In this document: positions 67-5,273 of the stretch, piece by piece
How the letters are laid out: the number at the start of each line of letters is the position of its first letter
How positions within the stretch are numbered: position 1 is the first letter of the stretch
From: Chloroflexota bacterium
GTDB lineage: Bacteria > Chloroflexota > Dehalococcoidia > Dehalococcoidales > UBA3254
Length of the DNA: 5,361 bases
NCBI GenBank assembly: GCA_017860765.1
Contig: JAGDMY010000121.1
Coordinates: 1 to 5,361, forward strand
Reading direction: 5' to 3'
Notes under the pieces: generated by a model
What the model was told of the DNA's origin: nothing
Database searches by the model: none
What the model saw: only the letters and a program-made list of their open reading frames with translations
Translations under genes and position numbers: made by a program

Positions 67-162
67 TTACCCTGTGGTATTTAGTTGAATAATGCACTTG
101 CCGCTACCGAAACCGGTTATCGGTCCTTTTCCTTGTGGACCTGTACCATCCTTTTTAGGCAC
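67..162 (-). CDS. Small DUF5320-like 'DGTGP' protein, 31 residues
   Basis: The protein begins MPKKDGTGPQGKGPITGFGS and continues to residue 31. The repeated Gly-Pro/Gly-Thr pattern followed by GSGKC is the N-terminal signature I know from the DUF5320 family (MPxxDGTGPxGxGPxTGxGxGxC). The function of that family is not established. Its genes are often found beside DUF134 regulators and iron-molybdenum-cluster-binding (NifX/NafY-like) proteins. I chose the GTG start at 162 because a strong AAGGGGG site lies about 8 bases upstream and the family signature begins there. A longer frame in the same phase runs upstream to 423, but it overlaps the DUF134 gene and has no family resemblance there. Usual family members are much longer. 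Here the frame ends in TAA right before an in-frame helix-forming segment. A single Cys (C23) is the only obvious metal ligand. Confidence 0.72.
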   Translation of the reverse strand: MPKKDGTGPQGKGPITGFGSGKCIIQLNTTG

Positions 163-229
163 AATTATCACCCCCTTATGGTATATTTTTAATTGAAGCT
201 CACGGCCTAAATCCAATACCCCTCTATAA

Positions 230-658
230 TTAATCTCCTTGGCCAGCTTGCGGCAATCTGGCGCTATCCTCAATCTGACCGATTTTGGAATTTTCTTCAC
301 CGTCGCGACGGCATTTCGGCCATCCGGCCCCTCTGCCGCAACATCGACCCCCCTGCATGAACTGTGGATCAACTTCGAAGTTCCCCCCTTCAATCCGGAT
401 GGCCTTGCCATTAAGAAGTACATCCGATATCTTACGCCTGGCGGAGGCCAGTATTCTCTGAAAGGTGGGGCGAGAAATATTCATTTTCTCGGCTGCTTCC
501 TCCTGTTCTAATCCCTCCAGGTCCTTTAGTCTGATGGCTTCCGCCTCTTCGATAGAAAGGTTGACCTCTTCAAGTTCCCGCATCGGGATCCCAGCCGGTT
601 TAAAATAGGTTACATTCGGCAAATAAGCGATGCGCCGGCATTTAATCGGCCTCGACAT
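230..658 (-). CDS. DUF134 (UPF0251) family predicted DNA-binding protein
   Basis: This 142-residue protein opens MSRPIKCRRIAYLPNVTYFK and continues with PAGIPMRELEEVNLSIEEAEAIRLKDLEGL, the classic N-terminal block of DUF134. A sigma-70 region-4-like helix-turn-helix spans about residues 49-77 (GLEQEEAAEKMNISRPTFQR and onward), where the SRPTFQR segment should be the recognition helix. The tail carries Cys106, Cys107 and Cys116 in a Gly-rich stretch that could bind a metal or Fe-S cluster; that is inference. The length is normal for the family. The ATG at 658 is supported by AAGGAG 8 bases upstream. The DUF5320-like gene follows after 67 bases on the same strand, so the two are probably co-transcribed. 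A 22-bp palindrome just upstream, next to a promoter, suggests autoregulation. The regulated pathway is not proven for this family; links to Fe-S or Mo-Fe cofactor proteins come from gene neighbourhoods. Confidence 0.9.
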   Translation of the reverse strand: MSRPIKCRRIAYLPNVTYFKPAGIPMRELEEVNLSIEEAEAIRLKDLEGLEQEEAAEKMNISRPTFQRILASARRKISDVLLNGKAIRIEGGNFEVDPQFMQGGRCCGRGAGWPKCRRDGEENSKIGQIEDSARLPQAGQGD

Positions 659-818: not shown

Positions 819-1982
819 TTACTCTAAATATTTAGAATAGCCTTCCCCTACCCAGGAGGTACTGAACCGGGATTCGCCCAGCCTGCGTAAAAATTTCAGA
901 TAGCTTAATCCTTCAGCGCAGGCGCTATATCTAATGGCGCCTGGCTCAAGACATGTCCGGCATCTTTCCTGTTTTTCCATTCCCTTCCGCCAGGCCTGAG
1001 CAAGCGGACCTCCCCATATCGTTTCCGGTTCTTGCTTTCTTAAATCTCCTATAGGCGTGGCTATCATCTCGCAGGGAAAGACTTTGCCGTCAAATTCGAT
1101 AAAAAGATAGTTATATCCCGCCGTACAGACCCAGGACTTTCTTCTGCTTTTCAAAAAGCGGCAGGTTTGCGCGTAGAAATAGCTCTTGTTTAGTTCGCTG
1201 CGACTGTAAAATTTGGAAATCTTGTGATAATCGCCCGGTCCTAATATTAATTTGTCCTGCCGGTCAAGATTTCTGAACCTCCCTGCTGTAAAGAAGACCG
1301 GGGAAATGATATGAAAGAGGCCTTTAGCTAAGGCGTAATCCAGGATGGAATCCAGATTATCGATGTTCTGGGGCAGAATGGTAGCCTTGATACCGGCCAG
1401 AAAATTAGGGTACTCTTTTTTCAGCTCCAGAAGTCCCTCGATGGTTTCCGTAACCAGCTTATAAGCGTCTTTCGTACCCCGGATTGTATCATGAATTTTG
1501 CCTATTCCATCGAAAGAGTTCACGCTGACCAGGTCAATATTGGTACGCTGCAGCCCCTCCAGGATATTCCGATAGTTGGCGACGGTTTTTGCTGGCAGGA
1601 GACCGTTCGAGGTGATAATAATGCTTCTCAATTTGGTTAAGTGGTTCGCTTTCAGTCCGGCAACACCGGTCGCCAGATCCACCAGGTCGTCCCTGAGATG
1701 GGGCTCACCGCCGGTTAAGTCCAGTTCGACCAGCTGAGAGCATACCGGGCTGGATAATATTTTAAGAATCTCCCGTCCGGACATTTCCAGGCTCTGAATA
1801 CTGGGGATCTCCCGGCTTCTTTTCCAGAGATTGCACATCAGGCAGTGAGAGTTACAGCGGTGAGTTAGGGCCAGGCTCATCACGCTTGGTTTTAAGGGTG
1901 TAGCTCTGAGTCTATGGCGCCGAAAATTAAGTGCGTTATCTTGAAGAATTTTTTCTGTCTTAATATAATCGTTCTGTTCCAA
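819..1982 (-). CDS. Radical SAM protein with SPASM/twitch-like C-terminal cluster domain
   Basis: This 387-residue protein has the radical SAM signature CxxxCxxC at Cys43, Cys47 and Cys50 (CNSHCLMC), the SAM-binding TGGEP at 90-94, a strand ending ITSNG at 123-127 and the FDG...IHDTIRG segment at 157-169. These together define a partial TIM-barrel radical SAM enzyme. After the barrel, Cys286-x12-Gly299-x4-Cys304 followed by Cys341xxCys344 and Cys355 resembles the SPASM/twitch region that holds an auxiliary Fe-S cluster. It has fewer cysteines than a full two-cluster SPASM domain. Such enzymes modify peptides or proteins, or make cofactors; the substrate here is unknown. The only available upstream start is TTG at 1982, with a weak ribosome site. 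The in-frame stop lies just above it and the next Met (35) is too close to the cluster motif, so the start is uncertain. The gene stands alone, divergent from the DUF169 gene. Confidence 0.9.
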   Translation of the reverse strand: MEQNDYIKTEKILQDNALNFRRHRLRATPLKPSVMSLALTHRCNSHCLMCNLWKRSREIPSIQSLEMSGREILKILSSPVCSQLVELDLTGGEPHLRDDLVDLATGVAGLKANHLTKLRSIIITSNGLLPAKTVANYRNILEGLQRTNIDLVSVNSFDGIGKIHDTIRGTKDAYKLVTETIEGLLELKKEYPNFLAGIKATILPQNIDNLDSILDYALAKGLFHIISPVFFTAGRFRNLDRQDKLILGPGDYHKISKFYSRSELNKSYFYAQTCRFLKSRRKSWVCTAGYNYLFIEFDGKVFPCEMIATPIGDLRKQEPETIWGGPLAQAWRKGMEKQERCRTCLEPGAIRYSACAEGLSYLKFLRRLGESRFSTSWVGEGYSKYLE

Positions 1983-2230: not shown

Positions 2231-2989
2231 ATGAGACCGCTGCAAACCGATTTGTCAATTTATCGCAAGTTTAACTTTGAGAGGCCGCCGGTAGGCGTCA
2301 AATTCCTGTTCCACAAACCGGAAGGCATTGAGCCACTGGGCAAAACTCTGGGTCTCTGCGAAATGCTCAAAGAGGCACAATTGAGAGGAGAGCCTTTCTA
2401 CTTTACTAAAGAGAATGAGGATTGCTTCGGGAAAGCATTCCTGGGCATGATGGGGGAATCACCTGAACTTGGGGACGGCGGTCAGTTGGGAATCAAATTT
2501 GAAATCTTTCAGGAGGCACATGCTAACAGCCGGTCGCGCCGGTTCCAATATAATATGGAAAAGGGTATGGCTAACTATGTTGTTCTTGCCCCATTGGACA
2601 GGATAACCTTTGAGCCAGACCTCCTGATTCTTACCGCCCCTCCCAGCCAGGCAGAAATTGTGCTCAGGGCAATGACCTATTCTAGCGGCGAAATGTACGA
2701 GAGCAAGTCAACCTGTGTCGGGGGTTGTTCCTGGCTTTTCATTTATCCTTATCTCAGCGGCAAGGTGAATTACATTATTACCGGGCTGGCTTATGGCATG
2801 AAGGGAAGACAGGTATTTCCCGAAGGACTGCTCCTGATATCCATCCCTCATAACTGGATACCGACGATTACGCAAAACCTCAGGGAAATGAAATGGGTTC
2901 TGCCGGCATACACTCTGGGCAGGGAAAAATTCATACAGTACGAACATCAGGTACTGAACGAGCTGGCCAGGGAGTGTCAGAATCCTTGA
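2231..2989 (+). CDS. DUF169 family protein (COG2043)
   Basis: The 252-residue protein begins MRPLQTDLSIYRKFNFERPP followed by VGVKFLF, the typical opening of DUF169. Further family-like blocks are the GLCEMLKEA stretch around residues 41-49, DCFGKAFLGM near 64-73 and CVGGC at 162-166. The biochemical role of DUF169 is not established, although the family is common in anaerobic bacteria and archaea. Cys43, Cys65, Cys162 and Cys166 could form a metal or Fe-S site; this is inference. There is no signal peptide or clear membrane segment, so it is probably cytoplasmic. The ATG at 2231 is preferred over an upstream TTG because GGGGGAGG ends five bases before it and the TTG would lie within that site. 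It is the first gene of a same-strand group that continues with the HapK-like and acyl-CoA dehydrogenase genes. Confidence 0.87.
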   Translation: MRPLQTDLSIYRKFNFERPPVGVKFLFHKPEGIEPLGKTLGLCEMLKEAQLRGEPFYFTKENEDCFGKAFLGMMGESPELGDGGQLGIKFEIFQEAHANSRSRRFQYNMEKGMANYVVLAPLDRITFEPDLLILTAPPSQAEIVLRAMTYSSGEMYESKSTCVGGCSWLFIYPYLSGKVNYIITGLAYGMKGRQVFPEGLLLISIPHNWIPTITQNLREMKWVLPAYTLGREKFIQYEHQVLNELARECQNP

Positions 2990-3476: not shown

Positions 3477-4691
3477 ATGAATCTGGAGCATCTGCTGACC
3501 GACGAGCATCGTCAGCTACGCAATACGATAAGAGAGTTTACTCATAAAGAGATTATACCCAGGACCAGGGAACTGGAGGCTGACTACAGCCTGGTCGAGG
3601 AAGTGCACCAAAAACTTGTCGATATGGGAATACAGGCCGCCGGCTACCCCAGGGAATATGGAGGGGGCGGCGGACTTTCCCCGTTGATGCAGGTGATTAT
3701 GGGTGAGGAACTTGCCAGGGGCGACGGCGGCATTGCCATGACTGCCAGCGTCAATGCGGGGGCGGTGCTCTCCGCAGCCATCCAGGCCAACAACAGGGCG
3801 GTTATGGACCGGTTTATTCCCCTGTTTACCCGGGGGAAACTGGCTCATGCCTGTTTAGCTATGACCGATGAGGCAGGCGGGGCAGACACCGAGAACCCTT
3901 TGCTGCAGGGTGCCGGCATTAAGACGATTGCCAGGCTGGAGGGTGACGAGTGGGTCATTAACGGCAATAAATCCTGGCCTACCCACGGCGGCATTGCCGA
4001 GGTCTACATTACCGTTTGTACCACAGACCCGAAAGCGGGAGATGAGGGTATCGCATTGATTTACGTCCCTCGTGACGCGCCAGGGCTCACCTTTGGCAGG
4101 CCGGAGAAAAAGATGGTGTATAAAACGGTAGTCAATGGCTCCGTGTACTACGATAATGTCCGGGTGCCCAGGGAATACCGAGCCGCGGGGCCAGGTGCTG
4201 ATGCCCGGATATTCTATGCGGCTATTGCCGCCGGAGCTCAGTTGCATTCTGCGATACAGGCCCTCGGCATTACCGAAAGGGCTTTCGATATAGTGCTCGA
4301 ATATACTGGCATCCGTAAGGGGGGATTTAAGCCGGTCAGGCAGCATAGCCTGGTGGCTGGCATCATTGCCGATATGGCCGTCGGCATCGATATGATGAGG
4401 GCCGGCGTATACAACCTGGCCATGATGTTCGAGAATGCCAATTTCTACGGGCCACCATTTTCCAAGCAGTTCATCTCCAAGGCAGCGGCGGTAAGGGTGT
4501 TCTGCAGCGATGCCGGCGTAGAACTAATCAACAAGGGAGCCGAGCTGCTCGGCTCCATGGCGATTTCAGAGGACTTCCCTTACGAGAAGTGCCTGCGTGA
4601 CATCAAGATATTGCAGCTCTGGCTCGGGGGTCAGCAGATTTGCCGCTACCGCGTGGCTAACGGTTATTACGATTTGAAAAACTGGGCTTAG
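3477..4691 (+). CDS. Divergent acyl-CoA dehydrogenase family flavoprotein lacking the usual catalytic Glu
   Basis: This 404-residue protein has the full three-domain acyl-CoA dehydrogenase layout. The N-terminal helical domain spans about 1-125. The middle beta domain runs from LAMTDEAGGADT (127-138, a variant of the AMTEPGAGSD motif) through INGNKSWPTHGG (161-172) to about 235. The C-terminal helical domain has AAGAQLHSAIQALG, Arg280 in the FAD-binding position, and KCLRDIKILQLWLGGQQICR (371-390). The last block aligns with the family's 'RDAKIYQIYEGTSQIQR'. The Tyr-Glu-Gly-Thr is Trp382-Leu383-Gly-Gly here, so the glutamate base is missing. The segment before AAG (251-253), where isovaleryl- and long-chain enzymes carry their Glu, has Phe-Tyr instead. 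The 'LGGxG' FAD-binding segment is altered to LGSMA. FAD binding is likely; ordinary dehydrogenation is doubtful. A strong GGGAGGGG precedes the ATG. The carbonic-anhydrase-like gene follows after 36 bases, so the two are probably co-translated from one message. Confidence 0.9.
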   Translation: MNLEHLLTDEHRQLRNTIREFTHKEIIPRTRELEADYSLVEEVHQKLVDMGIQAAGYPREYGGGGGLSPLMQVIMGEELARGDGGIAMTASVNAGAVLSAAIQANNRAVMDRFIPLFTRGKLAHACLAMTDEAGGADTENPLLQGAGIKTIARLEGDEWVINGNKSWPTHGGIAEVYITVCTTDPKAGDEGIALIYVPRDAPGLTFGRPEKKMVYKTVVNGSVYYDNVRVPREYRAAGPGADARIFYAAIAAGAQLHSAIQALGITERAFDIVLEYTGIRKGGFKPVRQHSLVAGIIADMAVGIDMMRAGVYNLAMMFENANFYGPPFSKQFISKAAAVRVFCSDAGVELINKGAELLGSMAISEDFPYEKCLRDIKILQLWLGGQQICRYRVANGYYDLKNWA

Positions 4692-4727: not shown

Positions 4728-5273
4728 TTGCTGTATAGTTTCAGAAATAGAGAACCCATAATCGGAAAAAACACCTACATCAGCGAGCAGGCCGTCTTGA
4801 TTGGAGATGTGAGGATAGGTGACGATTGCTATATCGGGCCGGGAGCAATATTAAGGGCTGATTATGGGGCTATTGAGGTTGGTGATGGCTCGGCTGTCGA
4901 GGATGGCGTAGTGGTGCATAGTCCTCCCGATATTACCTGTAAGATTGGTAAGAAGGTCACTATCGGGCATGGAGCTATCGTACATTCCAGCGCAATTGGA
5001 GACTCGGCTACCATAGGTATGGGTGCGATAATCAGCATCGAGGCTCAGGTAGGTGCCGAGACCACGGTCGCTGAGGGATCGGTGGTCAGGATGAAGCAAA
5101 TAGTCCCGCCATCGGTCATTGTGGGAGGGAATCCTGCCAAGGTGATAAGGCAGGTAACAAAGGGTGATAAGGAGTTTAACGACTACGGTAAAGCCGCCTA
5201 TATCGACCTGGCTCATGAATATCTCCGTGAGGGTTTGAAAAAGGTGGAAACGGGGAGTAACGCCAAATCTTGA
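4728..5273 (+). CDS. Gamma-class carbonic-anhydrase-like hexapeptide-repeat protein
   Basis: The 181-residue protein consists of left-handed beta-helix hexapeptide repeats (IGDVRIGDDCYIGPGA and onward, residues 25-130) followed by a C-terminal helix (about 148-172). The three zinc or iron ligands of gamma carbonic anhydrases are present as His64, His81 and His86. The RAD motif Arg43 and Asp45 is kept. Glu58 falls near where many members have Gln. The VGGNPAKVIR motif (132-141) is typical of the YrdA/PaaY/CaiE group. The acidic loop of the archaeal Cam enzyme is not seen, so CO2 hydration cannot be assumed; PaaY acts as a thioesterase. The start is TTG at 4728, supported by AAAGAGGAGA seven bases upstream. 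Gene order after an acyl-CoA dehydrogenase recalls caiE lying in the carnitine operon with caiA. The protein should be a cytoplasmic trimer. Confidence 0.88.
   Translation: MLYSFRNREPIIGKNTYISEQAVLIGDVRIGDDCYIGPGAILRADYGAIEVGDGSAVEDGVVVHSPPDITCKIGKKVTIGHGAIVHSSAIGDSATIGMGAIISIEAQVGAETTVAEGSVVRMKQIVPPSVIVGGNPAKVIRQVTKGDKEFNDYGKAAYIDLAHEYLREGLKKVETGSNAKS

Follow-up and report, generated by a model that had tools for sequence, protein, structure and literature searches.

A 404-residue flavoprotein with the fold of the acyl-CoA dehydrogenases (ACADs), encoded in a 5,361-nucleotide stretch of Chloroflexota DNA (contig JAGDMY010000121.1; the whole stretch is called the window), carries a leucine, Leu383, at the position of the family's catalytic glutamate, and this replacement is conserved among its closest homologues. 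From these comparisons we propose, in a reading that we regard as evenly balanced between right and wrong, that the protein is a flavin adenine dinucleotide (FAD) enzyme whose redox reaction on a CoA ester dispenses with α-proton removal by a carboxylate at either of the two classical base sites. The reaction thus proposed probably differs from that implied by the acyl-CoA dehydrogenase name, under which homologues are entered in databases as ‘butyryl-CoA dehydrogenase’, ‘AidB-like acyl-CoA dehydrogenase’ or ‘acyl-CoA dehydrogenase family protein’.

Results

The catalytic glutamate is replaced by leucine. HMMER alignments to short-chain ACAD (SCAD) and to 3pfd agree in aligning Leu383 with the Glu in the YEGT motif, corresponding to Glu376 of medium-chain ACAD (MCAD), so that the Glu of the YEG motif that marks a canonical acyl-CoA dehydrogenase is absent; this bears out the preliminary description of the window, which had read the motif as Trp382-Leu383-Gly384-Gly385 (Trp382 at 4620-4622, Gly384-Gly385 at 4626-4631). 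In the close clade, comprising the query and its 120 best matches (121 rows, 68-100% identical, one of which, P0001, is the window's own protein), residue 383 was Leu in 120 rows and Val in one, confirming that it is fixed in orthologues. The Leu383 codon varied among CTT, CTC and CTG across 13 loci while the residue stayed constant, a pattern expected under purifying selection, and the homologue rows together with this codon variation rule out a sequencing error or an isolated mutation. Residue 383 was Leu in 73 and Met in 48 of 121 rows of a tandem partner lineage, and Leu in all 121 rows of a Syntrophales-type lineage. None of these 363 sequences had an acidic residue there, the three sets being each query's nearest 120 matches (the best 120 of 1880, 526 and 3578) and hence not independent. 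Orthologues with Glu, which the preliminary description had named as the sign of an isolated substitution, were not found among them; relatives that do keep Glu share 41-48% identity with the window protein.

The second base site is also non-acidic. In isovaleryl-CoA dehydrogenase (IVD) and long-chain ACAD (LCAD) the base is a Glu at this site (IVD Glu254, equivalent to MCAD Thr255), which aligns with Gly253 or Ala254 of the window protein, where a one-residue insertion lies around the site; neither residue is the Glu of the isovaleryl/long-chain type. Column 254 was non-acidic in 121/121 close-clade rows (T, A, P, G or S), and the adjoining column 253 held Asp in 8/121. The preliminary description was thus right that the second site is non-acidic, but not in locating it at a Phe-Tyr stretch, as the AAG anchor it had used is not homologous. 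An Arg beside the second site, found in every Glu-bearing (10/10) and every outgroup row (9/9), occurs in 12/48 Glu-less rows of the wider group described below.

The flavin-contact positions, by contrast with both base sites, are retained in the alignments. The window protein keeps Thr130, Trp167, Thr169 and Arg280, and the Glu-less rows had Thr/Ser130, Lys165 and Trp167 in 48/48, Thr/Ser169 in 47/48 and Arg280 in 45/48, the flavin-contact roles of positions 130, 165, 167, 169 and 280 being, we assume, those of MCAD. Judged by these retained positions, the protein looks like a working flavoenzyme, which disfavours the earlier suggestion that it might only bind ligand. The LGGxG motif had been called degenerate, and this holds in part: Gly360 is replaced by Ser and position 362 is Ala, but Gly359 is kept, and the Ser replacement also occurs in Glu-bearing relatives, whereas Ala362 is particular to the close clade.

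Glutamate and leucine or methionine were exchanged repeatedly in a wider superclade. A species-genome scan yielded 80 loci, from which 59 proteins were extracted and aligned, and 30 of them belonged to a superclade defined by RDxKIxQLWxGG and its variants, with residue 383 being Glu in 10, Leu in 11, Met in 8 and Val in one. By record title, the 80 loci were chiefly Deltaproteobacteria/Syntrophales and Dehalococcoidia metagenome-assembled genomes (MAGs), with a minority of Acetobacteraceae, actinobacterial, Spirochaetes, Acidobacteria, Bacillota and Euryarchaeota MAGs; the superclade occurs mostly in MAGs from typically anaerobic lineages. In a quick tree of 72 proteins with some long branches, built with the motif columns excluded, one branch with support 100 separated 63 superclade rows from 9 others, conventional or Ch1CoA-dehydrogenase-like ACADs, of which 8/9 had Glu. 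Seven of 79 rows were removed beforehand: L018_07 (not an ACAD), L021_05 (a degenerate partner) and, as other ACAD types, L001_11, L001_12, L014_08, L014_10 and L118_03. The approximately unbiased (AU) test rejected a single group of all 53 Glu-less superclade rows (p-AU 0.000058) and likewise a single group of the 10 Glu-bearing rows (p-AU 0.00011), and within the superclade at least four switches at the site are needed. Since one origin is rejected for either state, Glu and Leu/Met appear to have been swapped repeatedly, and either direction, loss or regain, is possible.

No replacement acid common to the Glu-less lineages emerged. Asp83, put forward earlier as a substitute base, was present in 48/48 Glu-less, 10/10 Glu-bearing and 2/9 outgroup rows and in 5/5 partner subunits without FAD motifs, so that it tracks neither Glu loss nor flavin binding, and it aligns with Cys79 of cyclohexenecarboxyl-CoA dehydrogenase 7p98 rather than with Asp91, which we take to be the catalytic residue of that enzyme. 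Row distribution and alignment together rule out Asp83 as the replacement base. A screen for D/E/H columns enriched in Glu-less over Glu-bearing superclade rows gave its five largest differences at positions 5, 349, 20, 275 and 41, all outside known active-site motifs by sequence. Lower in the ranking stood positions 132 (0.40 versus 0) and 170 (0.34 versus 0), both in flavin-binding motifs. The column screen found no compensating D/E/H common to the Glu-less superclade lineages, because positions 132 and 170 are essentially features of the close clade only. Glu132 was present in 120/121 close-clade rows, and His257, a possible clade-specific base, in 106/121, being missing from the other 15 and from the other two Glu-less sets.

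A different acid, Glu139, marks the superclade as a whole. It lies in an inserted loop, positions 135 to 150 spanning 15-16 residues in the superclade versus 8 in 9/9 outgroup rows, and was present in 363/363 sequences of the three homologue sets. Among rows with FAD motifs, 48/48 without the catalytic Glu and 9/10 with it have Glu139, as do 2/5 degenerate partners and 0/9 outgroup rows. The sole row with FAD motifs that lacks it, L014_07, retains the old catalytic Glu. In these alignments Glu139 tracks with flavin binding, as read from the motifs.

Membership in the ACAD superfamily is supported by both fold and domains, the Pfam N-terminal, middle and C-terminal ACAD domains scoring 74.8, 66.6 and 63 bits (gathering thresholds 22.9, 33.3 and 22.4). 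The best NCBIfam scores were for acryloyl-CoA reductase AcrC (176.5 bits) and cyclohexane-1-carbonyl-CoA dehydrogenase (166.9 bits), against cut-offs of 640 and 650 bits, so the window protein is not an equivalog of either. Among the matches listed, the closest were metagenome proteins 87-89% identical, and the nearest named relatives came from Dehalococcoidales MAGs (71-73%) and a Desulfobacula sp. (71%).

Table 1 Features of the window and of its ACAD-fold protein.
Feature	Position	Strand	Basis or remark
DUF134 regulator	67..658	-	Pfam
Radical SAM/SPASM protein	819..1982	-	Pfam
DUF169 protein	2231..2989	+	PF02596, 101 bits
EthD/HapK-like small protein, 102 aa	3071..3379	+	PF11639, 30.5 bits (cut-off 25)
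ACAD-fold flavoprotein, 404 aa	3477..4691	+	Open reading frame, full-length
Asp83, base candidate of the preliminary description	3723..3725	+	Superclade-wide, independent of Glu loss
Loop 136-149 after TDExGG motif	3882..3923	+	Alignment; 7-8 residue insertion of the superclade
Glu139, superclade hallmark, candidate functional acid	3891..3893	+	Conservation
Gly253-Ala254-Gln255	4233..4241	+	Site of the IVD/LCAD-type Glu and of the Arg conserved in most ACADs
Active-site motif LRDIKILQLWLGGQQIC, residues 373-389	4593..4643	+	Aligned to RDxxIxxIYEGT of SCAD/3pfd
Leu383 codon CTC, catalytic Glu position	4623..4625	+	HMMER alignment, homologue rows, codons
Left-handed beta-helix protein (gamma carbonic anhydrase/PaaY/CaiE-like)	4728..5273	+	Hexapep PF00132

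The DUF169, EthD/HapK-like, ACAD and beta-helix genes run in one direction on the plus strand, downstream of the minus-strand radical SAM/SPASM and DUF134 genes. Scores below model cut-offs were obtained for the EthD/HapK-like protein with TIGR02118 (27.2 bits, cut-off 30.5) and for the beta-helix protein with the PaaY model (131.5 bits, cut-off 319.6), and no NCBIfam model shown for the radical SAM/SPASM protein passed its own cut-off (best 62.8 bits). An open reading frame overlapping the DUF134 gene has a weak DUF5320-like tail, just under the Pfam cut-off. A scan for promoters and terminators gave counts close to those of shuffled sequence (8 versus 4.6; 5 versus 3.5).

An EthD-like gene is a conserved upstream neighbour. 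With the window's copy as tblastn query, it was found immediately before the ACAD, in the same orientation, in 11 of the 12 close-clade loci that extend upstream (the window, L001, L130-L137 and L140, where L001/L136 and L130/L137 are each a pair from a single genome), being in two pieces in L135 and lacking in L129. In the five loci measured the EthD-ACAD gap was 95-97 bp, and the intergenic sequence compared there was not conserved. An EthD-like gene also stands directly before a VMGG-type ACAD in L024 (7597-7902) and a WEGG-type ACAD in L010 (7422-7763); in the remaining VMGG/WEGG-type loci examined it occurred only once, farther away, in L008. Its position before ACADs of three subclades (VMGG, WEGG and WLGG) suggests that the EthD-like protein and the ACAD form a lasting functional pair.

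Other neighbours vary. Of the 14 close-clade loci that extend downstream of the ACAD (the window, L001, L002 and L129-L139), three, L129, L131 and L133, have a second superclade ACAD immediately after it. This tandem partner lineage (L095 147-1457, homologues P0121-P0240) has a V[L/M]GG motif. Besides the window, a DUF169 gene is close to the ACAD in L001, L132 and L134, there on the opposite strand, with a weak match (21%) in L133, while the beta-helix gene had no tblastn match in the related loci examined and was seen in the window only. L001 contains a RACo-type activator, an ACAD pair, a 3-hydroxyacyl-CoA dehydrogenase/hydratase and a DUF35 protein; by clustering, L132 and L137 hold counterparts of these and also a thiolase. 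A TRAP transporter lies near the ACAD in L132, CCG and NarI-type proteins occur in L136, and AFOR genes in L131 and L008. In L142 an electron-transfer flavoprotein (ETF) stands beside the partner lineage, with CCG and FAD-oxidase genes assigned by clustering. Taken together, the neighbours suggest that CoA esters are metabolised by anaerobic redox reactions, but they indicate no single substrate.

Several loci showed further arrangements. In L129 (8009-11722) an MTTB-type methyltransferase, a second protein co-clustering with it and a B12-binding protein lie downstream of the orthologue and its tandem partner, and in L130 (4550-5950) a reductive-dehalogenase-family protein (PF13486) is directly 3′ of the orthologue. 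Tandem ACAD-like pairs occur in L020 (6685-17229), L021, L022, L023, L025, L026, L027 and L031, in which the first subunit lacks FAD motifs (five rows counted) and the second carries WMGG, or WLGG in L031. Several of these loci also hold Pfam-less proteins, HGD-D genes and a BcrAD-type ATPase (by Pfam in L020, by clustering in the others), and the L020-type pair looks like an undescribed redox system.

Discussion

In the mechanism we propose, a CoA (or similar) thioester would bind above the flavin, Leu383 occupying the place of the base, and the chemistry would accordingly not begin by α-proton removal via Glu376 or Glu254. As both classical bases are absent and the flavin site is intact, we favour a reaction needing no carboxylate there, with hydride transfer on a conjugated, malonyl-type or reductive CoA thioester; among these possibilities we prefer an alicyclic or conjugated thioester as the hydride-transfer substrate. 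Electrons would probably leave through ETF for a membrane route of the CCG/NarI type, and the probable role of the EthD-like protein is to deal with a reactive product or substrate. Several observations weigh against this proposal: Glu132, His170 and also His257 could act as clade-specific replacement bases, the Glu-keeping members of the superclade may carry out ordinary dehydrogenation, the neighbour genes differ between loci and so single out no one substrate, and the 5.4-kb window contains no ETF, ligase or hydratase gene.

The repeated loss of Glu would be explained if the old residue had become dispensable through a relocated base in an otherwise ordinary α,β-dehydrogenase, an explanation that we consider unlikely. 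Its best candidate is Glu139, which is universal in the homologue sets, absent from the outgroup, kept by only 2/5 partners without FAD motifs and missing from a single FAD-motif row that still has the old Glu; the rejection of one origin for either state, with its multiple switches, fits as well. By sequence, however, Glu139 lies three residues beyond the Ser142-equivalent of MCAD, a position that is presumably nearer the pantetheine than C-alpha, and it accompanies Glu in nine rows and may therefore serve CoA binding. The alternatives restricted to this clade, Glu132, His170 and His257, are close-clade features not found in the other Glu-less lineages, apart from Glu132 in 6/121 rows of the partner lineage. 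Slightly less likely still is that the protein belongs to a heteromeric ACAD of the ChsE1/ChsE2 kind, in which it would be silent in catalysis or contribute a half-site, with the base supplied by a partner: steroid ACADs work in this mode (PMC8399759), and a superclade ACAD does follow directly in the three loci named above, but that partner lineage is itself Glu-less and has FAD motifs of its own, no partner adjoins the ACAD in the window or in 10 other loci, and the window protein retains its FAD motifs.

A non-redox enzyme on the ACAD scaffold seems very unlikely. 3-Sulfinopropionyl-CoA desulfinase also lacks the Glu (AGG) and its model, NF042439, matches the window protein, but with 119.2 bits, far under the cut-off of 600, and relatives have ETF and CCG/NarI genes nearby, which speaks for electron transfer. 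Membership among flavin monooxygenase-like proteins such as DszC or nitroalkane oxidase is highly improbable, since the match to PF08028 (35.7 bits, cut-off 22.7) is exceeded by that to PF00441 (63 bits), the best fold matches are dehydrogenases, and the nearest named relatives, from Dehalococcoidales MAGs and Desulfobacula sp., belong to usually anaerobic groups.

Going beyond redox chemistry without a classical base, we offer a broader speculation that we consider rather doubtful as a whole: the superclade may be an unrecognised class on the ACAD scaffold, in which a centre formed by the inserted loop and Glu139 made the catalytic Glu optional, and an EthD-like barrel finishes a reaction on an alicyclic or conjugated CoA ester. 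If so, the textbook Glu, being optional, was swapped for Leu or Met several times, and the pair would carry out a two-protein anaerobic transformation not described in the literature found. No publication describing the superclade was found among titles and abstract openings of largely non-subscription literature. Metabolic models of uncultured anaerobes may score these proteins as beta-oxidation, and if selection accounts for the missing base, a large group would be misassigned. Repeated exchange of Glu and Leu inside a single superclade also amounts to a natural experiment on the role of the family's best-known residue, and the superclade supplies related Glu and Leu enzymes for comparison in vitro.

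Comparison with known systems

In cyclohexenecarboxyl-CoA dehydrogenase 7p98, Thr363 aligns with Leu383 of the window protein, and Asp91 aligns with Ala96 (Gly95 in an ungapped alignment by eye), both non-acidic; it is the tandem partner lineage, not that of the window, that has Asp/Glu within one residue of Asp91 (119/121). Like the steroid heteromers of the ChsE1/ChsE2 type, superclade members sometimes occur as tandem pairs. In those heteromers, however, one subunit keeps Glu (PMC8399759), whereas neither tandem partner has it in the loci and 121 rows examined, and the window contains no second ACAD. Isovaleryl- and long-chain ACADs likewise have the motif without Glu (PMC11659651), but carry a Glu at the second site, where Gly, Ala or Thr is found here. 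According to PMC11659651, the residue preceding Glu is altered in enzymes for α-substituted substrates.

Precedents for the missing Glu are the desulfinase, whose model score sets the window protein apart, cyclohexene-CoA dehydrogenase and benzylmalonyl-CoA dehydrogenase IaaF. Glu-lacking ACAD subfamilies are listed in PMC8360864, and the altered chemistry suggested earlier is plausible. IaaF has the small residues GGG, unlike the bulky Trp and Leu of WLGG in the window protein, and no iaa-type genes were recognised in the window. For IaaF, CO2 loss has been proposed in place of α-proton abstraction, with the absent Glu preventing unwanted C2 deprotonation (PMC8360864), and this logic is the nearest published argument for the mechanism proposed for the window protein.
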